Source: Phycisphaerales bacterium
GTDB lineage: Bacteria > Planctomycetota > Phycisphaerae > Phycisphaerales > SM1A02
Assembly (NCBI GenBank): GCA_009691915.1
Contig: SIAD01000006.1
Span: 62,001-126,000, forward strand
Length of the DNA stretch: 64,000 bases
Direction: 5' to 3'
A program made the translations under genes and the position numbers. The notes under the pieces are model-generated. The model had not been told where the DNA came from, made no database searches, and saw only the letters and a list, made by a program, of their open reading frames with translations. Shown here one piece after another: positions 4,772-45,170 of the stretch (the first letter of the stretch is position 1; each line of letters begins with the position of its first letter).

Positions 4772-5576
4772 TCCCTGGTCATATGGATTCATGCGGGACG
4801 CGCTCGCCGCCGGCATGTCGGCCGGGGCAGCCTGCGCCGCGCTCGGCGTGTATGTCGTCTTCCGGCGCATGGCATTTGCCGGCGAAGCAATGTCGCACAC
4901 CACTCTCCCCGGGCTGGTGATGGCGCAGCTCGGGGGGTGGAGCCTCGCGGTCGGAGCGCTCGCCAGCAACTTGCTAACGGCGCTCGGCATCGGATTCCTC
5001 TCCGGTGGTCCATCGCATCGACGCGGCGTCCGCGACGACGCAGCCATCGGGGTCGTGTTTACGGGGATGTTCGCCCTCGGCGTGATCCTCATGAGCCTCG
5101 GCGGATCGTGGCGCGATCTCAGTCACCTGATTCTTGGGAACATCCTCGCGGTTTCTCCGGGGGACCACTGGTTCATGGTGGTGGCGGGAATCGTCGTTCT
5201 CACGGCGCTCATTGCGCTCCACAAGGAACTCGAACTATCCAGTTACGACGCGGCCTATACCGATCTCATCGGGATCGGTTCGGCGCGCCTCAAGTGCGTA
5301 GTACTCGGGCTCGTGGCCCTCGCGGTCGTCGCGGGTGTGCAGGTGGTCGGCGTGATCCTCACCAGCGCACTGCTGATTACTCCAGCTGCCTCAGCCGCCA
5401 TGTTCACCCGCCGGCTCGTCCCCATGATGCTCATCGCCGTAGGCCTCGCTTGGATGGCGGTAGTCGCAGGGCTGCTGCTGGCTTTCAACGCCGACCTGCC
5501 CGCGGGCGCGTCGATCGTCGCATGCGCCGCGATCACATTTGTCGCAGCGTGGATCTGGCGGCGACTACACAGGTGA
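4755..5576 (+). CDS. Zn/Mn ABC transporter permease
   Basis: Integral membrane permease of the ABC-3 family (ZnuB/MntC/TroC type), 273 residues with about eight hydrophobic helices. Seen: the N-terminal conserved stretch YVVFRRMAFAGEAMSHTTLPG, cut here at the family hallmark, and the EAA-like region VQVVGVILTSALLITPAA. The start at 4755 (MAWLLDPWSYGF) lies within the end of the ATPase gene; the reading frame is open further upstream, but that part is out of register with the family. It completes the operon of sensor, binding protein, ATPase and permease. The next gene is convergent and begins 11 bases downstream. Confidence 0.88.
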   Translation: MAWLLDPWSYGFMRDALAAGMSAGAACAALGVYVVFRRMAFAGEAMSHTTLPGLVMAQLGGWSLAVGALASNLLTALGIGFLSGGPSHRRGVRDDAAIGVVFTGMFALGVILMSLGGSWRDLSHLILGNILAVSPGDHWFMVVAGIVVLTALIALHKELELSSYDAAYTDLIGIGSARLKCVVLGLVALAVVAGVQVVGVILTSALLITPAASAAMFTRRLVPMMLIAVGLAWMAVVAGLLLAFNADLPAGASIVACAAITFVAAWIWRRLHR

Positions 5577-36628: not shown

Positions 36629-38077
36629 ATGCCAGTGAGGCATGTCAAGGATGCGGGGCGCAACGCCTTGGAGGTGTGGACGCTCGCGTGGCCGACGGTC
36701 ATCACGATGCTCAGCTACACGCTGATGCAGTTCGTCGACAGCATCATGGTCGCGCAATTGGGCCCCCTTGAACTCGCCGCGCAGGGAAATGGAGGCGTGT
36801 GGACCTGGACGGTGACGGCGTTTCTCGTGGGGATCATCTCGCTCGTCAACACCTTTGTTTCCCAGGCCATCGGCGCCAAGGACACGGCCAACGCGTCCCG
36901 GTATGCGTGGGCCGGAGTCTGGTTTGGTCTCGCCTCATGGGTGGTTGTCCTTCTTCCGTTTGGGTTCCTCGTCCTGCCATGGGCATTCACGAAGATGGGT
37001 CATGAGCCACGACTCATCGAACTCGAGCTCGCGTACGGACAGTGGCTCATCGCGGGCGGCTGCTTCACGCTTGTGGCCAAGGCCTTCAGCAACTTCTTCT
37101 TCGCGGTGCAGCGCCCCAAGGTCGTCGCGGTCGCGGCCATCGCCGGAAACTGCATCAATCTGGTTCTCAACTACGCCCTGATCTACGGAGATCGTGGTCT
37201 GCCGGCGCTGGGTCTTGGGGGAGTGCCGGGGGTCACGCCGATGGGTGTCGAAGGCGCGGCGATCGCCACGGTGATCGGCGTCGGGATCGAGTGCATGATT
37301 CCAGCGCTGTATTTCTTCGGTCCGAGACTCGCCCGTGAGTACGCGACTAGGCGCAACTGGCGTCTCGATGCGGGGGCGATCAAGGACCTTGTCCGTGTCG
37401 GCTGGCCCGCATCGATCCAGTTCGGCAACGAGATGTTCTGCTGGTCTGTGTTCATGACAGTGCTGGTAGGGGTTTTCGGCACTGTGCATCTGGCCGCAGC
37501 CTGGGCGGTCCTCCGATTCATGCACCTTTCATTCATGCCGGCGGTCGGCTTCAGCATCGCAACAACAAGCCTCGTGGGTCGCTCTATCGGCGCCGGAAAC
37601 ACCAGTCAGGCGACACGCTACGCGCGGACCGCGCTCTGGATGTCGGTCCTCTATATGGGGGCGTGGGGGGCACTCATGCTCCTCTTCCGTGAGGACATGA
37701 TCCGTCTCTTCACCGACGCGTCGGTGGTTGACAGCGCAGAGGCGGCAGAGATCGTCCGAGTCGGTGCGTCGATCATGATCGCGGCAGCGATCTTCCAGGC
37801 ATTCGATGCCGTCGGGATCGTCTACACCGGGGCCCTGCGCGGCGCCGGCGACACGCTCTGGCCAGGCATCGTCACGATTGTGCTGAGTTGGTCGCTGATT
37901 GTCGGCGGGGGATGGTGGATGGTGCGGTTCCGCCCCGAGTACGAGTCGGTCGGTCCTTGGATCGGGGCGACCATCTACATCATTGTCCTGGGAGGCGCGA
38001 TGGCGTGGCGATTCGAGCGCGGCCCCTGGCGATCCCGACCCTTGTCACGCCATGCCGGAGTCTCGGACGCCGGATGA
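36629..38077 (+). CDS. MATE family efflux transporter
   Basis: Integral membrane antiporter of the MATE family, 482 residues, about 12 helices. Seen: TLMQFVDSIMVAQLGPLELAA in helix 1, cut here, the repeat motifs FVSQAIGAKDTANASRYAWA and SLVGRSIGAGNTSQATRYAR (duplicated halves), and the hydrophobic helices between. It starts 18 bases after nuoG. The substrate may be a cationic drug, flavin or lipid-linked compound; nothing here decides it. Confidence 0.88.
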   Translation: MPVRHVKDAGRNALEVWTLAWPTVITMLSYTLMQFVDSIMVAQLGPLELAAQGNGGVWTWTVTAFLVGIISLVNTFVSQAIGAKDTANASRYAWAGVWFGLASWVVVLLPFGFLVLPWAFTKMGHEPRLIELELAYGQWLIAGGCFTLVAKAFSNFFFAVQRPKVVAVAAIAGNCINLVLNYALIYGDRGLPALGLGGVPGVTPMGVEGAAIATVIGVGIECMIPALYFFGPRLAREYATRRNWRLDAGAIKDLVRVGWPASIQFGNEMFCWSVFMTVLVGVFGTVHLAAAWAVLRFMHLSFMPAVGFSIATTSLVGRSIGAGNTSQATRYARTALWMSVLYMGAWGALMLLFREDMIRLFTDASVVDSAEAAEIVRVGASIMIAAAIFQAFDAVGIVYTGALRGAGDTLWPGIVTIVLSWSLIVGGGWWMVRFRPEYESVGPWIGATIYIIVLGGAMAWRFERGPWRSRPLSRHAGVSDAG

Positions 38078-38145: not shown

Positions 38146-39060
38146 ATGAGTACCGCCATGACTGCGACCGTTGAGCCAAATCCCGCTGCTGCCAAGCCCC
38201 ATGTTGACTCGGCCAAGAAACACGAAGCCGAAGGACGGCGTGATGAGGCGATTGCTTCCTACCAGACCGCGCTCGACCATGACCGCAGTTGCCAGACGAT
38301 GTTCGCGCTCGCGCGACTCCTTGATCAGGTCGGTGATGACGATGAGGCACTCGCGTTGTATGAGGAGATCTGCTATCGGCCGACTCCGCCGGTGAATGCG
38401 CTCATCAACCTCGCCACGATCTACGAAGACATGGGCGAGTCTGAGCGCGCCCAGCGTTGCCTTCGTCTCGTGCTCGACAAGTACCCGACTCACCCGCATG
38501 CGCGCATGTACCTCCGGGATGTATGCGCGGTCCAGACACTCTCCTACGACGCGCAGGCGGACCAGCAGGCCGCACGACGCAACGCGATCCTCGACACGCC
38601 GATCACTGACTTCGAACTCAGTTCGCGCGCACGCAACTGCCTGAAGAAGGTCGAGATCCGCACGCTCGGCGACCTCCTCAGGGTCACAGAGGCGGAGCTA
38701 ATGGCGTTCAAGAACTTCGGAGATGCCAGCATCAACGAGATCAAGGCGATGCTCGCTTCGCGCGGACTGCGGCTTGGACAAGCACTCGAGGGCGGCTACG
38801 AGGAGTCGTATCGACAGGACTACCTGACGAAACTGCGTGACACCGTAGCGCAGGATGTGCTCGATACGCCGGTGACCTCGCTCCAACTGACAATCCGCGC
38901 CCGCAAGGCCGTTCAGGTGCTCGAAATTCGCTCGCTAGGTGAACTCGCGTGCCGGACCGAGGCGGAGCTGATGGGAATCAAGAATTTCGGTACGACGAGC
39001 TTGGACGAAATCAAGGAACAGCTCGCGACCTTCGGTCTCGCGCTTCGAACGCTCGAATGA
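38146..39060 (+). CDS. TPR protein with two RNA polymerase alpha-CTD domains
   Basis: A 304-residue protein: N-terminal TPR-like helices (about 15-125), then two copies of the RNA polymerase alpha C-terminal domain, at 149-215 and 239-304, joined by a 20-residue linker. Copy 1 (SRARNCLKKVEIRTLGDLL) keeps the equivalents of E. coli R265, N268, C269, G296 and S299 but has Ala for K298; copy 2 (TIRARKAVQVLEIRSLGELA) keeps R265 but has Lys and Ala at N268 and C269. No polymerase alpha N-terminal domain is present. A -10-like TATGCT lies at 38110-38115. Start ATG 38146 chosen; ATG 38158 is alternative. It overlaps the SpoIID-like gene by 4 bases. Could act on DNA, or on sigma/activators, as a decoupled alpha-CTD. 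Confidence 0.85.
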   Translation: MSTAMTATVEPNPAAAKPHVDSAKKHEAEGRRDEAIASYQTALDHDRSCQTMFALARLLDQVGDDDEALALYEEICYRPTPPVNALINLATIYEDMGESERAQRCLRLVLDKYPTHPHARMYLRDVCAVQTLSYDAQADQQAARRNAILDTPITDFELSSRARNCLKKVEIRTLGDLLRVTEAELMAFKNFGDASINEIKAMLASRGLRLGQALEGGYEESYRQDYLTKLRDTVAQDVLDTPVTSLQLTIRARKAVQVLEIRSLGELACRTEAELMGIKNFGTTSLDEIKEQLATFGLALRTLE

Positions 39061-40517
39061 GGGAGGATGTCCGGCGCGGGGCACTCACCGCGGCCGCGAT
39101 CGCGCTGAGTCTCTGCGCGGGATGCGCTCCCGAGTCGGTCGCGCCGACTCCCCCGCAGAGCGTTGACTCGGCCACACCGCAGTCCGCTCCAGGCGCGCCC
39201 GCCCTGCCAGTAGCCGCGCCGCCCGTCGAAACCGCCGATCTTGAGTTTCCCGCCAAGCCCAAGGTGTTTCCTCCCAAGGAACGACCGGTTCCTCTGACTG
39301 AGGAGCCAATGATGGCTGTGCGGATCGGATCGGTGAAGGCAGGGGAGCCGATCCCGATCGATTGCGTGGGAGGGCTTCTGATCTCGCCACGGGATGCGGG
39401 GTCCGATTCACCGGCTTGGGCCACGGGTGCTCCCGTCGAGATCCGGGCCTCGAAGCGAGGGTGGAGTGTCAAGGGGAAGCCCGCCGGTACCGCCTCGTCC
39501 CAGCGGGAGTTCCCGCCGTGCGAACTGGTTGTAGTTGCCCGCGAGGGAGCGCCTCGAACCTTGGAATGGAATCATGTGAAGTGGCCGGGGGAACTGAGGC
39601 TCGTCGAAGTGTCCTCGGATGGAGGTTTAGACGGGGCCGGGACCTCGCCCAGACGGATCGACCTGGTGATGGACATCGCGATGGAGTCGTATCTCCCTGG
39701 GGTGATCGCCAAGGAACTCTATGGCGGCTGGGACAAGGAGACCTACCGCGCGCAGGCGATCGCCGCGCGCAGCTTTGCCTTCGTCGAACGGGACCGTTGG
39801 GCGGGGCGACGACACTATGACCTTGTCGCGGGACAGCAGAGTCAGGCATGGGAGGGGGAGACCAAGAACCAACGCGCGATCGACGCGGTTGCGGCCACGC
39901 GCGGGCAGATGCTCGTGGTCGATGGCCGCGTCGTCCCGGCGTACTACTCAAGCGCATGTGGCGGACATCCTGCGTCGGCGCTCGGGACTCTCACCGACAA
40001 TCCATTCCACAGCATCGCCGCAGTCTCTGCCGGCGACGCCGGGAAACGCGTTGGAGCGTGCTGCCAGGGAGCGTCCGTGGCGTCATGGAAGGTGACGATT
40101 CCTCGCTCCGCGGTGCGTTCGAGACTTCAGGCATGGGGGAAAGTGAATGGGCGCCCTGACCTGGCGGCGATCGAAATGCCCTCGGCCATTGAGATCAATG
40201 AGCGCAATGCCGCGGGCCGTGCGATCTCGTTCACCCTCACTGCTGGGAAGCACTCGTACGAGATAGGCGCGGAAGACCTCCGCTGGGCGATGAACGCGCC
40301 GCGCGACCGGAAGACCACCCTGAAGTCAGGGGATCTCGCGGCGAAGTTCGTGCGTGTCGATGGCGCTGCGAGTGTCGAGTTCTCGGGGCGCGGATTCGGC
40401 CACGGAGTGGGGCTCTGCCAGCATGGCGCGCAGGAAATGGCCAAGTCCGGAGCCACGGCGCAGGAGATTCTGGCCAGGTACTACCTGGGTGCGACCATCG
40501 AGCGAGCGTGGAAGTAG
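39057..40517 (+). CDS. SpoIID/LytB-domain lipoprotein
   Basis: Predicted lipoprotein (lipobox ALSLCAGC, Cys about residue 21) of 486 residues with a Pro/Ala-rich linker and a SpoIID/LytB domain: MESYLPGVIAKELYGGWDKE, then AQAIAARSFAFV, then YYSSACGG, ending in FGHGVGLCQHGAQEMAKSG. SpoIID proteins are lytic transglycosylases that act on denuded peptidoglycan; the catalytic Glu is expected in AKELYGG. It overlaps the TPR/alpha-CTD gene by 4 bases and lies 2 bases before ribE. Role likely in cell-wall remodelling; planctomycetes do not sporulate as Firmicutes do. Confidence 0.85.
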   Translation: MREDVRRGALTAAAIALSLCAGCAPESVAPTPPQSVDSATPQSAPGAPALPVAAPPVETADLEFPAKPKVFPPKERPVPLTEEPMMAVRIGSVKAGEPIPIDCVGGLLISPRDAGSDSPAWATGAPVEIRASKRGWSVKGKPAGTASSQREFPPCELVVVAREGAPRTLEWNHVKWPGELRLVEVSSDGGLDGAGTSPRRIDLVMDIAMESYLPGVIAKELYGGWDKETYRAQAIAARSFAFVERDRWAGRRHYDLVAGQQSQAWEGETKNQRAIDAVAATRGQMLVVDGRVVPAYYSSACGGHPASALGTLTDNPFHSIAAVSAGDAGKRVGACCQGASVASWKVTIPRSAVRSRLQAWGKVNGRPDLAAIEMPSAIEINERNAAGRAISFTLTAGKHSYEIGAEDLRWAMNAPRDRKTTLKSGDLAAKFVRVDGAASVEFSGRGFGHGVGLCQHGAQEMAKSGATAQEILARYYLGATIERAWK

Positions 40518-40519
40518 CC

Positions 40520-41119
40520 ATGTTTACAGGACTCATTCAAGGCGTCGGCACGGTCAGCGCGCGCGATACGCGTGGCGCCGGCGTGCGGCTTGCCGTCGAC
40601 CTTGGGCCGCTCGCCCCACGCGCGTGTGCGGGTGACTCGGTCTCTGTGCATGGGGTCTGCCTGACTGTGGCGGGGGAGGATCATGCAATCCGCGCCTTCG
40701 ACCTTGTTGAGGAGACGCTATGCAGAACGACGCTCGGCTCGCTCGGGCGAGGGTCGCGGGTCAACCTGGAGTTGGCACTGCGCGCTGGCGATGGGATTGG
40801 GGGTCACATTGTTCAGGGTCATGTCGACTCTGTGGGGCGCGTCACACGAGTCGATCTCGCGCAGGGGCGCCACCGTGTTCGCGTCGAGCTACCTTTGGAA
40901 ATCTCGTCCATGATGGTCGCGCAGGGATCAGTGACCATTGATGGAGTCTCCTTGACGATCGCCTCCTGCTCGGACGCGTGGATCGAGGTCGCACTCATTC
41001 CGGAAACGCTTGGACGCACGACCCTCCCAGATCTCGCGGAAGGGGCACTAGTCAACATCGAGGTCGATGCACTGGCCCGACTGGTCGACGCCGCGGTGCG
41101 GCGAAGGATGCGCGTCTAG
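40520..41119 (+). CDS. ribE: Riboflavin synthase alpha chain
   Basis: Dismutes two 6,7-dimethyl-8-ribityllumazine molecules to riboflavin. The 199-residue product consists of two similar lumazine-binding barrels: barrel 1 from MFTGLIQGVGTV (catalytic N-terminal strand) to about 95, and barrel 2 from HIVQGHVDSVGRV to about 190, with VTIDGVSLTI repeating the VSVHGVCLTV of barrel 1. ATG 40520 fits the family N-terminus; it lies 2 bases after the SpoIID-like stop, with GTGGAAG before it. The stop interlocks with that of the convergent gene through a shared CTAG. Confidence 0.92.
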   Translation: MFTGLIQGVGTVSARDTRGAGVRLAVDLGPLAPRACAGDSVSVHGVCLTVAGEDHAIRAFDLVEETLCRTTLGSLGRGSRVNLELALRAGDGIGGHIVQGHVDSVGRVTRVDLAQGRHRVRVELPLEISSMMVAQGSVTIDGVSLTIASCSDAWIEVALIPETLGRTTLPDLAEGALVNIEVDALARLVDAAVRRRMRV

Positions 41120-42369
41120 GAGTTCGTCGGCCCGTCCGCACCAGTGCGCGACACACACAAGAGCGTGAGATCATCGATCTGCGGGAAGTCTTCGCTTTCC
41201 TCGTCGAGCCGCCCCTCAATGTGCGCGATGAACTCCTGGGGAGTCGCGTCGCGGGCGAACTCCTTGAAAACATCTAGGAATCGGCGATTGGGGAGCCGAG
41301 GCGCGGCGGGATCCTGACCGAGTTCGGGAAAGGCCTGCTCAAACCCATCGGTGTAGAAAAGCAGCTTCTCGCCCTCCAGGATGGTCATCGATCGCTCAGT
41401 GAAGACTTCGTCGGCGAAGACTCCGAGCAGGCCGCCTTCGCTCTGTGTGTGAGCCATCGAGCCGTCGGGAGCGAGCCGGATCATCGGGGGATGGCCGGCA
41501 CTCGCCACAGTCAGCTCGAAGGTCCGTGTGTCCATCACGCCGTAGATCGCCGTGGCGAACCGTGTCGTGCGGCCCACACGGGTCATCATGTCCGCATTCA
41601 CCTTGGAGAGCGCCTCTGATGGTGGGAGTACTCGGTACGAGCTATCGACGATTTCCTTCGTCGGCAGAGTGCGCGAGATGACGAGCGTCAGTAGTGCCGC
41701 GGGTACGCCATGGCCTACCGCGTCGGTCACGAAGAACCCGAGGTGGTGCTCGTCGATGCGGATGACATTGTAAATGTCCCCCGAGACATAGGCCGCGGGG
41801 CGCCAGAGGGCATCGGATACAACGCCGACGATCGAGGGGAGCGAGCGGGGAAGAAACTCGCGCTGCACCGACGCGGCGAGCTGCAGTTCACCCTGAATTG
41901 TGCTGATCTCGTGACGAAGCCCGCCGGAGAACCGCATCGCGCTGACTGTCTCCACCTGTAGTCGGGCGAATTCCTTCTGCCGCGAGATGAGGGCGTAGAG
42001 TGCAGTGGCGAGGTATTCCGGACCCTGCGCGGGATCGATGGCGAACGAGATTCCCGGGGGGAGCGGATCAGTGCCGTTCCAGGAGTCAGTCAGTGCCAGT
42101 ACTGGAATCGCCTGCGCAATCGCTTCCTGAAAGGCCGCCGATGATGCGGCGGTGCCATTGGGCATTCCGACCATAACAACCGCCTGGGCCTCGCGCACGA
42201 GCATCGCCTGATCGACGGGATCCGGTGAGTCCACCGTCTTCGCGTCGAGGCGGTACTTCGTCGAAAGCATGTGGGCAACCGTCTCGTGAACCGATCCAGG
42301 CTGCATGGACAACACCGCGACGCGGGGGTGAATGTTTCTCAGCGACTGGTGCTCCAAGGGAATCGACAC
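41116..42369 (-). CDS. SpoIIE/RsbU-type PP2C phosphatase
   Basis: A 417-residue protein. The N-terminal domain (about 15-125, HPRVAVLSMQPGSVHETVAHM) resembles a degenerate response-regulator or sensor fold; the C-terminal SpoIIE phosphatase domain (about 165-410) has SGDIYNVIRIDEHHLGFFVT with DAVGHGVPAAL, then FATAIYGVMD, then LLFYTDGFEQAF, then the terminal IDDLTLLCV. The metal-binding Asp residues of PP2C are in place. GTG 42369 is preferred (TACACT 7 bases upstream); ATG 42405 is in frame and would overlap the phhB promoter. Likely works in a partner-switching system, though no anti-sigma factor is nearby. Confidence 0.85.
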   Translation of the reverse strand: MSIPLEHQSLRNIHPRVAVLSMQPGSVHETVAHMLSTKYRLDAKTVDSPDPVDQAMLVREAQAVVMVGMPNGTAASSAAFQEAIAQAIPVLALTDSWNGTDPLPPGISFAIDPAQGPEYLATALYALISRQKEFARLQVETVSAMRFSGGLRHEISTIQGELQLAASVQREFLPRSLPSIVGVVSDALWRPAAYVSGDIYNVIRIDEHHLGFFVTDAVGHGVPAALLTLVISRTLPTKEIVDSSYRVLPPSEALSKVNADMMTRVGRTTRFATAIYGVMDTRTFELTVASAGHPPMIRLAPDGSMAHTQSEGGLLGVFADEVFTERSMTILEGEKLLFYTDGFEQAFPELGQDPAAPRLPNRRFLDVFKEFARDATPQEFIAHIEGRLDEESEDFPQIDDLTLLCVSRTGADGPTNS

Positions 42370-42376
42370 GCTGGCC

Positions 42377-42382
42377 AGTGTA
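42377..42382 (-). promoter_or_regulatory. -10-like TACACT, SpoIIE-type gene
   Basis: On the minus strand TACACT ends 7 bases before GTG 42369, supporting that start over ATG 42405. Confidence 0.35.
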
Positions 42383-42404
42383 GCCCCGCGAAATCGCCGC
42401 CGCA

Positions 42405-42410
42405 TACGCT
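42405..42410 (+). promoter_or_regulatory. -10-like TACGCT, phhB
   Basis: TACGCT ends 6 bases before ATG 42417; the gap is AGGGGG, which could act as a very close ribosome site if the transcript starts further upstream. Confidence 0.35.
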
Positions 42411-42416
42411 AGGGGG

Positions 42417-42722
42417 ATGAACCCACGCATGAGCGAGGCCGAGATCGGCGACGCGTTGAGCCGCACTCCGGGCTGGTCACGCAGCACCAGTCTCATCGAA
42501 CGCACTTTCGTGTTTCGGGACTTCGTCGCATCGATGGCGTTCGTCAACCAGGTCGCCGTCGAGGCCGAACGAACGCAGCATCATCCGGACATCTCGATCC
42601 TCTACAGCAAGGTTCGTCTCGCGTTCAGCACACACGACGCTGGTGGGCTCACGGTCAAGGACTTCGCGGGCGCGGTGTTCGCCAACGCGGCCGCCGCGGG
42701 CCAAGTAGCCGCCGCGCGCTAG
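42417..42722 (+). CDS. Pterin-4a-carbinolamine dehydratase
   Basis: Recycles 4a-hydroxytetrahydropterin (after aromatic amino acid hydroxylation) or moonlights in cofactor pathways. The 101-residue product has the family core: GWSRSTSLIERTFVFRDF, VAVEAERTQHHPDI (catalytic His pair with Asp) and STHDAGGLTVKDF. It is of usual length. The stop shares CTAG with the convergent mcsB gene. No hydroxylase is nearby. Confidence 0.9.
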   Translation: MNPRMSEAEIGDALSRTPGWSRSTSLIERTFVFRDFVASMAFVNQVAVEAERTQHHPDISILYSKVRLAFSTHDAGGLTVKDFAGAVFANAAAAGQVAAAR

Positions 42723-43780
42723 CTCGCCGTAAGCGCCTGCCTCACAATTGTGGCGCGCACCTCGCGCTCGGCCTCTTCGCCCTCGCCCGCGCGCGGGTCG
42801 ACGAGGCCCAGATGGGCCGGTTGAACCTGGAGAAGCAGCCGCTGGACCGTCGAGAGCGGGAGGGGAATGATTTCGCAGGCAACTCCGAACCGAAGTCGGC
42901 CGAGGAGTTTCGTCGCTTCGTCGGCCCCGAGGACTCGTGCGCTCGAGAGGATCGCGTGCGCGCGCAGGACGCGGTCTTCGACCATTGTGCGTGACCGCGC
43001 CAACGCCGCCGCGCGCGCTTCCCGCTCGTAGCCCACGATTCGCGGGAGGATTGTCCGCAGGAACTCGTCGCGCAGCGCTTCCTCCGTCGCCCCGAGCGTG
43101 ATCTGATTGGAGAACTGGTAGAAGTCGCCGATCGACGCGCTCCCTTCTCCGTAGTAGCCACGCACGGCCAGATGCAACTCCTCGGCCGCCCGCTTGACTC
43201 GGGCGATCTCGCCGGTCATGCTCAGGGCTGGAAGGTGCAGCATGGCACTAAGGCGGATCCCGCATCCCACATTGGTCGGGCACGCCGTGAGGAATCCCCA
43301 TCGCGGGTGGAACGCATAGTTCACATGCGCGCCCAGTGCTTGCTCGATGGCGAACGCCGCGTCGAATGCCACCGACAGCGCGGCCCCGGGAGCGAGCGAT
43401 TGAATCCTCATGTGATCCTCTTCGTTGACCATCATCGACGAGTGTTCGTCGCGCGACAGCGCAAGTGCCCGCGGGGTGTCCGCTTCCACAAACGCCTGCG
43501 AGGCGAGGTGGCGCTCCTTGAGAAGAATTCGCTCCCGTGCGGGGGTCTTGAGGAGATCCATCCACTGCAGGGCGGTGGGGCCGCTCTCCGTGGGATCTCG
43601 GGGAGCGAAGCGCTCGATCGCCTGGCGAACGACGCGGAGAACCTCGTGTCGGATCGCTGAACTCGCCCGGTTTGTGAAGGGGAACCCCGAAATGTTTCGG
43701 GCGATCCGGACACGACTGGTGACAACGACATCGGAATCAGGTCCGACCCGAGAGAGCGCGGCGGTGAACGGCACGCTCAT
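42719..43780 (-). CDS. mcsB: Protein arginine kinase McsB
   Basis: Phosphorylates arginines on proteins that are then degraded by ClpCP; it resembles phosphagen kinases. The 353-residue product has VVTSRVRIARNISGFPF (nucleotide site), VNEEDHMRIQ (catalytic Glu pair with Asp), TACPTNVGCGIRLS (active-site Cys) and GYYGEGSASIGDFYQFSN with QITLGATEE. All key residues appear present. It overlaps mcsA by 4 bases, and kdsA precedes mcsA. ClpC is not in the window. Confidence 0.93.
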   Translation of the reverse strand: MSVPFTAALSRVGPDSDVVVTSRVRIARNISGFPFTNRASSAIRHEVLRVVRQAIERFAPRDPTESGPTALQWMDLLKTPARERILLKERHLASQAFVEADTPRALALSRDEHSSMMVNEEDHMRIQSLAPGAALSVAFDAAFAIEQALGAHVNYAFHPRWGFLTACPTNVGCGIRLSAMLHLPALSMTGEIARVKRAAEELHLAVRGYYGEGSASIGDFYQFSNQITLGATEEALRDEFLRTILPRIVGYEREARAAALARSRTMVEDRVLRAHAILSSARVLGADEATKLLGRLRFGVACEIIPLPLSTVQRLLLQVQPAHLGLVDPRAGEGEEAEREVRATIVRQALTAS

Positions 43781-44307
43781 GGTGGCTCCATGCCTAAGTG
43801 GCCTGGCTGGTCGAGCTCGTCGAGCGCGGCAATCTCGTCGCGCAGCGTCGCGGCGCGCTCGTATTGCTCAGCGGTGACTGCCGCCTCGAGATCCCGAAGA
43901 AGCTTCGCGCGCACCGCCTGAGTCCGCTGCACACTCTCGCTGCCCACGGGTCGCCGACCGACATGCGCCACGGCACCGCCCTGGGAGCGCTCGATGATTT
44001 GCCCGATCATCGGCATCAGCGCGTCGTAGCAGGCTGCGCATCCCAAGGCCCCGGCCTGCTTGAACGCGGCAAAGGTGAGGCCGCAGGCCGCGCATCCTTT
44101 GGATCGTTCTTGCGCAGGAGATCCCGCAACCCCCGCGGCTGCCGCCGCCAGAAACGACTCCAGAAGTTTCGCCACCGGCTGCTCAGTGGGCAGGGAATAG
44201 CCCGCCTCGGAGGCGTGTTCGGCGCACAGGTGTACTTCCCTCGTCACACCATCCCTGATCGTCACTTCGTGGACGACCGCCGCCTTGGGGCAACGGTCGC
44301 AGTTCAT
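43777..44307 (-). CDS. McsA-like zinc/UVR protein
   Basis: Activator partner of McsB, 176 residues. Two zinc modules: MNCDRCPKAA with CAEHA (CxxC...CxxH) and CAACGLTFAAFKQAGALGCA followed by CYDAL (CxxC...CxxC). A UVR motif (LLRDLEAAVTAEQYERAATL) closes the protein. In Bacillus McsA is needed for McsB kinase activity. ATG 44307 overlaps the kdsA stop by 4 bases (ATGA); longer ORF extensions upstream run inside kdsA and are not real. Confidence 0.88.
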   Translation of the reverse strand: MNCDRCPKAAVVHEVTIRDGVTREVHLCAEHASEAGYSLPTEQPVAKLLESFLAAAAAGVAGSPAQERSKGCAACGLTFAAFKQAGALGCAACYDALMPMIGQIIERSQGGAVAHVGRRPVGSESVQRTQAVRAKLLRDLEAAVTAEQYERAATLRDEIAALDELDQPGHLGMEPP

Positions 44308-45170
44308 GTCGCTCGCGCTCCCATTGAGGCCGCCTCGCGCAGTCGGGCCAGTTGTCGAAGTAGTGCAGGGATCAAAGCAAGCGGTTGGATCGTCGCTGGA
44401 TCGGAGAGGGAGTGCTCCGGCTTCGGATGGCACTCAAGGAACACCGCGTCAACCCCCGCGGCAACCGCGGCGCGCGCGAGCAGCGGCGCGCGATGGGAGT
44501 GGCCGCCGCTCGTCGTTCCTTCGCCCGGCCGTTGGGTCGAGTGCGTCGCGTCGAAGCAGACGGGAACGCCGAGATCCATCAGGTCCGCGATGCCGACAAA
44601 GTCGTTGACTAGGCGGTGGTAGCCGAAGAAGGTGCCGCGTTCGGTCACCATCACCTGTGTCGCACCAGCCTCACGAAGTTTGCCGATGGCTCCGGCCATC
44701 TCGGCGGGTGCCATGAATTGCCCCTTCTTTACATTCACCGCACGACCCGTGGCGGCCGCTGCGGCAAGGAGATCCGTCTGACGCGCCAGGAATGCGGGGA
44801 TCTGCAGAATGTCGACGGCCTTCGCGGCGCGTGCGGCCTGGGAGGGCTCGTGGATGTCGGTAGTCACAGCGACACCAACACGCTCGCGCAGTGCGGAGAG
44901 CATGTCGCATCCGCGCTCAAGGCCCGGGCCGCGAGGGCTCGAGACGCTTGATCGATTCGCCTTGTCGAAACTCGCCTTGAAGACGAAGGCGAGTTTCGCC
45001 TCCGCGCAGGCGTCGCGCAAAGTCATGGCAATCTCGAGGTTCACTTCTTCCGCTTCCAGAACGCACGGTCCAGCGATAATGAGGAGGGGGCCGCGCGCAG
45101 CCAGGGCCAAATCGCCGCTCTCGCGGGGCGCTCTCGGGGAAAAGAACCCAGGAAAGTCAAGCGAACTCAT
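44304..45170 (-). CDS. kdsA: KDO-8-phosphate synthase (KdsA)
   Basis: Condenses phosphoenolpyruvate and arabinose 5-phosphate to KDO-8-phosphate for lipopolysaccharide. The 288-residue product has LLIIAGPCVLEAEE, FKASFDKANRSSVSS, ERVGVAVTTDIHEPSQ, VDILQIPAFLARQTDLL, VNVKKGQFMAPAEM, FDATHSTQRPG and FLECHPKPEHSLSD, all family hallmarks. The Cys in AGPCVL and ECHP context fits the metal-dependent form. ATG 45170 has GAGGA 9 bases before it; the upstream extension has no family match. First gene of kdsA-mcsA-mcsB. Confidence 0.94.
   Translation of the reverse strand: MSSLDFPGFFSPRAPRESGDLALAARGPLLIIAGPCVLEAEEVNLEIAMTLRDACAEAKLAFVFKASFDKANRSSVSSPRGPGLERGCDMLSALRERVGVAVTTDIHEPSQAARAAKAVDILQIPAFLARQTDLLAAAAATGRAVNVKKGQFMAPAEMAGAIGKLREAGATQVMVTERGTFFGYHRLVNDFVGIADLMDLGVPVCFDATHSTQRPGEGTTSGGHSHRAPLLARAAVAAGVDAVFLECHPKPEHSLSDPATIQPLALIPALLRQLARLREAASMGARAT

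Follow-up and report, generated by a model that had tools for sequence, protein, structure and literature searches.

A TPR protein with two RNA polymerase-type alphaCTDs in Planctomycetota, a candidate transcription accessory factor often encoded next to ruvA

The locus and its tandem-alphaCTD protein

The gene described here lies in the window, by which we mean the whole analysed stretch of 64,000 nt, and its product joins a TPR region to two domains of the type found at the C-terminus of the RNA polymerase alpha subunit (alphaCTD). The features of the locus are collected in Table 1; a second possible ATG of the TPR-alphaCTD open reading frame is located at 38158. The start of the SpoIID-like gene overlaps the stop of the TPR-alphaCTD gene by 4 nt (ATGA, 39057-39060), and its product carries an LCAGC motif near the N-terminus, as read by eye. 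A search for sigma-70-like promoters between 36500 and 41300 returned none and is uninformative. Further along the window, two minus-strand loci were noted in passing. The first (41119-42405) encodes a SpoIIE-type phosphatase with an N-terminal part that looks receiver-like by eye, which matched the RssB and SiaA profiles below their cut-offs. The second (42719-44433) encodes a McsB-like protein arginine kinase beside a McsA-like activator, both below the NCBIfam cut-offs; with such a pair, arginine phosphorylation is possible in this planctomycete.

Table 1. Features of the TPR-alphaCTD locus in the window
Feature	Position	Strand	Evidence and remarks
MATE family transporter, 68 nt upstream of the TPR-alphaCTD gene	36629..38077	+	PF01554, 3.7e-46
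TPR-alphaCTD-alphaCTD protein, 304 aa	38146..39060	+	Stop included; Pfam, AlphaFold2 and Foldseek
TPR region and following helix (residues 13-131)	38182..38538	+	TPR families above cut-off; helices H13-28 to H117-131
alphaCTD copy 1 (residues 143-212), DNA-contact residues kept	38572..38781	+	PF03118 at 143-204, 76.6 bits
alphaCTD copy 2 (residues 240-303), K268/A269 in place of N268/C269	38863..39054	+	PF03118, 61.0 bits
SpoIID/LytB-domain protein, likely lipoprotein	39057..40517	+	PF08486, 1.6e-17; TIGR02669 above cut-off
Riboflavin synthase (ribE), 2 nt after the SpoIID stop	40520..41119	+	NF006767 and TIGR00187 above cut-off

An earlier note, made from the letters of the sequence, had described two domains of about 65 residues that match the alphaCTD, attached to TPR-like helices and without any alpha N-terminal domain, and our analysis bears out each part of this description. 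The profile PF03118 (RNA_pol_A_CTD) matched the window protein in two stretches with 131.6 bits and an E-value of 8.4e-39. Scored singly within the genome, both copies exceeded the cut-off of 23.8 bits, copy 1 with 76.6 and copy 2 with 61.0 bits, the CTD of the true rpoA reaching 76.0 bits. The E. coli alphaCTD (1coo) was matched by residues 142-216 with 5.9e-14. The superposition on the alphaCTD that the note had proposed as a check was made on an AlphaFold2 model, calculated from the window protein together with 52 relatives (mean pLDDT 83.1, pTM 0.42); the pTM value makes the placement of the domains relative to one another uncertain. Using Foldseek, an alphaCTD of this predicted model superposed on the E. 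coli structures 3k4g_A and 3n4m with 51-52% identity and a deviation of 0.7-0.9 A, the alignments covering 64-65 columns (over 64 columns, 0.7 A for 3k4g_A and 0.8 A for 3n4m_B). About three TPR repeats were found, with PF13176, PF07719 and other TPR families above the Pfam cut-off, and VIA-align, whose listing was taken up by matches to the TPR part, gave Z values of 14-16 against TPR proteins within residues 7-134 of the model. No alpha N-terminal domain family was present among the 21 Pfam rows for the window protein.

Two trivial explanations for this architecture were rejected. Kinship with unrelated helix-hairpin-helix domains, which the earlier note had named as the result that would speak against it, did not hold, as HHH_5 scored only 15.9 bits (cut-off 27) compared to 131.6 bits for the alphaCTD. 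A broken or mis-assembled rpoA is contradicted by a separate, normal and intact rpoA on another contig of the genome (C13) and by the same architecture across the phylum. By profile and fold, and in part by contact residues, the domains of the window protein are genuine alphaCTDs.

Next to known systems, the protein resembles RpoA in that both copies exceed the PF03118 cut-off, the fold agrees within 0.7-0.9 A and copy 1 has most of the contact residues. It differs from RpoA in carrying tandem alphaCTDs on a TPR array, in occurring beside a separate rpoA, in R267 and E/D297 of copy 1 and in K/R268 and mostly A269 of copy 2, and in the missing N-terminal domain, because of which we regard it as an alphaCTD protein that is not RpoA. 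A likeness to the PglW kinase of BREX/Pgl systems, with residues 134-204 matching positions 788-858 of the PglW profile (PADLOC) and residues 130-213 matching NF033442, is restricted to the alphaCTD stretch and reaches 39.9 bits against an NCBIfam cut-off of 990; the Pfam table of the window protein contained no kinase domain, and no BREX family was found among the scanned neighbours. The match to PRK07758 (NF005841) was likewise below its cut-off (38.6 versus 115 bits). With TPR adaptor proteins the window protein shares the superhelical TPR fold of residues 7-134, but a joining of TPR and alphaCTD did not occur among the best 60 of 79 matches in the search that listed 1coo, nor among the best 50 of 1711 Foldseek matches.

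Free-standing alphaCTDs outside RpoA were also seen in phage-like single-alphaCTD proteins, namely small ORFs in the viral contigs L220-L224 (at about 4870-5300), in which, unlike in the window protein, no TPR was seen. By eye, their motifs SVRxRK and KNFGxTSLxE are nearer to the planctomycete copy 2 than to RpoA, and they possibly derive from planctomycete phages. In three further viral contigs (L225, L228 and L232) the alphaCTD stands behind other N-terminal parts. Among 56 matching plasmid records, 21 are from Streptomyces; the matches H1-H15 are Streptomyces plasmids with alphaCTD matches, several of them annotated as RNA polymerase alpha subunit.

Distribution, contact residues and conservation

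We counted a genome as having a strong match to the window protein when its best E-value was at most 1e-27, a level that rpoA alone does not approach (about 1e-14 at best). Counted by eye from the columns of best E-values, and with sets that overlap, strong matches were present in 39 of 41 near relatives, in 114 of 120 genomes of the class (Phycisphaerae) and in 276 of 294 genomes of the phylum (Planctomycetota). The genomes lacking one mostly show matches at rpoA level or fragmentary matches; they include good assemblies (e.g. G022, 95% complete), while others are partial MAGs or end in fragments at contig borders. The search for genomes with the same TPR plus double-CTD architecture, suggested in the earlier note, thus shows the protein to be near-universal in the sampled Planctomycetota, with one copy per genome. 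Beyond the order of the window, most open frames are longer (in many cases 430-520 aa) and include extra TPR, for which reason we regard the 304-aa protein of the window as N-terminally shortened.

A scan of 84,980 species with six peptides of the window protein as query, which reaches near relatives only, returned 53 planctomycete-type loci and one rpoA. A locus titled Leptolyngbya sp. PLA1 (L070) is taken to be a mislabelled planctomycete MAG, and an apparent homologue in Caenarcanales (L087) turned out to be an ordinary rpoA beside genes that look S13-, S11- and L17-like by eye. None of 56 matching plasmid records and none of 6 matching phage records covered 80% of the query in one place, viral contigs gave 13 matching loci, mostly to the alphaCTD part, and no PHROGs family was found for the window protein. 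A phage or plasmid origin was rejected, as there was no full-length match in plasmids, phages or viral contigs.

To describe the DNA-binding surface we use E. coli numbering and the positions R265, N268, C269, G296, K298, S299 and E302, which we take to be the DNA-contact positions of the alphaCTD. In the window, copy 1 has R265 (R161 of the protein), N268, C269, G296, S299 and E302, while in copy 2 positions 268 and 269 are taken by K and A, just as the earlier note had read it: R, N, C, G and S kept in copy 1, N and C lost in copy 2. We then counted residues in 177 distinct sequences, mostly from Phycisphaerae. Copy 1 has R265, G296 and E302 in 176 sequences each, S299 in 172, C269 in 164 and N268 in 143 (T in 30). 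Position 259 is acidic throughout nearly all of them (D in 166, E in 10), as is position 261 (E in 154, D in 14). In copy 2, R265 (175), E302 (174), G296 (170) and S299 (166) are kept, and K or R occupies position 268 in 160 sequences and A position 269 in 123. Neither copy has Lys at position 298; because most planctomycete RpoA examined have T298 too, this is not a loss peculiar to the TPR-alphaCTD protein. A comparison with RpoA of the same 17 genomes revealed consistent differences: copy 1 has R267 in 17 of 17 genomes (RpoA mostly S, T or A), E or D at 297 in 16 of 17 (RpoA mostly K, R or Q) and F instead of L at position 260. With R267 and E/D297 beside the contact residues, the surface of copy 1 is not simply that of RpoA.

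For an evaluation of conservation per domain, each family outside the class was represented by a single protein, to which the window protein was added (62 sequences). The major residue reached a mean frequency of 0.76 for CTD1 and 0.60 for CTD2; for the TPR the value was 0.54, and for the linker that separates the CTDs 0.26. Copy 1 is therefore the most conserved part of the protein, under stronger constraint than copy 2, the TPR and the linkers. Between genomes (17 compared) its mean identity was 0.588, compared to 0.533 for the RpoA CTD, with copy 1 ahead in 92 of the 136 pairs, a set of non-independent comparisons. In a tree of 60-residue domains, in which deep support is weak, copy 1 forms one clade (22 of 22 sequences, support 0.89); most copy 2 sequences form another, and two (L141 and L145) group with rpoA sequences. 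In family f65, copy 2 is lost at two loci (L149 and L150), where 203-236 nt are left before ruvA, and divergent at two others (L176 and L196), from which we conclude that copy 2 is the more dispensable copy.

Gene neighbourhood inside and outside the class

Inside the class, a MATE gene lies directly upstream on the same strand for 53 of 105 distinct proteins with enough flank, and a SpoIID gene directly downstream for 52 of 102. Outside the class, MATE adjoins in 0 of 67 loci and SpoIID in 1 of 65. Riboflavin synthase is linked in 6 of 110 class loci only, and a general functional link to it was rejected on this count. Since SpoIID is limited to the class and riboflavin synthase is rare, both are poor guides to function. 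The operon with a SpoIID-like lipoprotein and riboflavin synthase, as stated in the earlier note, is thus found in the window itself, but it does not extend to the family as a whole.

Outside the class a different neighbour prevails. In 45 of 75 genomes, corresponding to 40 of 63 families, the gene that follows directly on the same strand is ruvA; no genome was dropped from this count for a short flank, and the 30 negatives include a few fragments of genes. The median gap to ruvA is 27 nt (48 loci, a few genomes being represented twice), with no overlap for the start codon chosen, and in both cases scanned the neighbour had all three RuvA Pfam domains. Long frames had suggested a fusion of the TPR-alphaCTD protein to RuvA, which was rejected as the stop precedes the ruvA start in 48 of 48 loci. 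In a set of 40 loci, ruvA was found in 27. Setting aside two larger neighbour clusters that are antisense shadows of the TPR-alphaCTD gene, the family that came next looked MurA-like by eye and was found in 7. As ruvB adjoins in just 9 of 65 loci outside the class, the TPR-alphaCTD gene and ruvA are kept apart from the other ruv genes.

Within the class, ruvA was downstream in 0 of 110 loci, and in the window genome a RuvA_N match lies on a different contig (C17), not adjoining the TPR-alphaCTD gene. At one locus of family f65 (L176:1250-5900, minus strand) the TPR-alphaCTD gene is followed by ruvA, ruvB, a QueH-like gene, SpoIID, a tgt-like and a YajC-like gene, all names other than RuvA and SpoIID being read by eye. 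This order suggests that the SpoIID neighbour in the window may be the remnant of a similar arrangement from which ruvAB has moved away.

Possible roles of the protein

We propose that the protein is a cytosolic core adaptor of planctomycetes that presents two polymerase-type alphaCTDs in trans on a TPR array. An accessory function in transcription appears to be its likeliest role, which we put forward tentatively. CTD1 would bind DNA in the manner of the polymerase alphaCTD, contacting the backbone and the minor groove via its R265 face; such binding is consistent with the retention of contact residues in the 177 sequences. Through the retained acidic residues 259 and 261, copy 1 may in addition contact activators or sigma region 4. 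Copy 2 would represent a modified and more dispensable second module, and the TPR, shortened in the lineage of the window, would recruit a protein partner, so that extra alphaCTDs would come to sit at promoters or along nucleoid DNA. UP-element binding, or a bridge between polymerase and another complex, both raised in the earlier note, would also be conceivable. The double alphaCTD recalls the pair found in polymerase, where the alpha dimer carries two. R267 and E/D297 alter the charge by the contact residues, so that the protein may differ from RpoA in the DNA it targets or even in whether it binds DNA. Counting against a transcription role, the neighbour most strongly conserved, ruvA, serves recombination and not transcription.

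The ruvA link makes an involvement in recombination possible. The protein could be a recombination and repair factor that joins RuvA at Holliday junctions or at stalled forks, where the alphaCTDs would grip duplex DNA and the TPR would hold on to RuvA or another partner. The directly downstream position of ruvA across 40 families with its short gap, its lead over the next real neighbour family and the separation of the pair from the rest of ruv all argue for this. However, the linkage is absent from all 110 class loci though the TPR-alphaCTD gene persists there, and it is also missing from 30 of the 75 genomes outside the class; adjacency may mean shared regulation alone, and the alphaCTD is not known to bind junctions. 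We consider this role unlikely, if still the second in weight. Even more doubtful is the wider idea of a core protein of Planctomycetota that would tie transcription to Holliday-junction processing via the two-gene unit with ruvA, for which we found no described counterpart in the literature searched.

Rather improbable is a decoy or anti-activator that would compete against RpoA in binding activators or sigma region 4, and would in this way damp activated transcription with no need to bind DNA. The acidic residues kept at 259 and 261 of copy 1, positions within the sigma-contact surface in E. coli, would fit such a protein, and E/D297 might weaken DNA contact; the strict retention of R265, N268, C269, G296, S299 and E302 would be unneeded. 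Least probable of all, and by our estimate very much so, is a scaffold between proteins whose alphaCTD folds would act off DNA as mere helical binding modules. In its favour, TPRs are protein-binding, N268 and in most cases C269 are gone from copy 2, and family f65 has lost that copy or has it in degenerate form. Against it, the contact residues of copy 1 persist in almost every one of the 177 sequences, and no other part of the protein is as conserved. In order of weight we therefore place the transcription accessory factor before recombination with RuvA, the decoy and the scaffold off DNA.

No description of a TPR-alphaCTD protein was found in the full-text literature searched, a scope outside which most subscription papers lie, and the protein is apparently new to the literature. 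Many activators and upstream DNA elements work on RNA polymerase through its alphaCTD, and a near-universal second carrier of this domain in the phylum would change the reading of planctomycete promoters and activators. The gene provides a genetic handle in tractable planctomycetes such as Planctopirus limnophila, whose essential genes are the subject of PMC10632474. Its pairing with ruvA offers a second lead, toward recombination, and the gene may serve as a marker of Planctomycetota if it is absent from other phyla.
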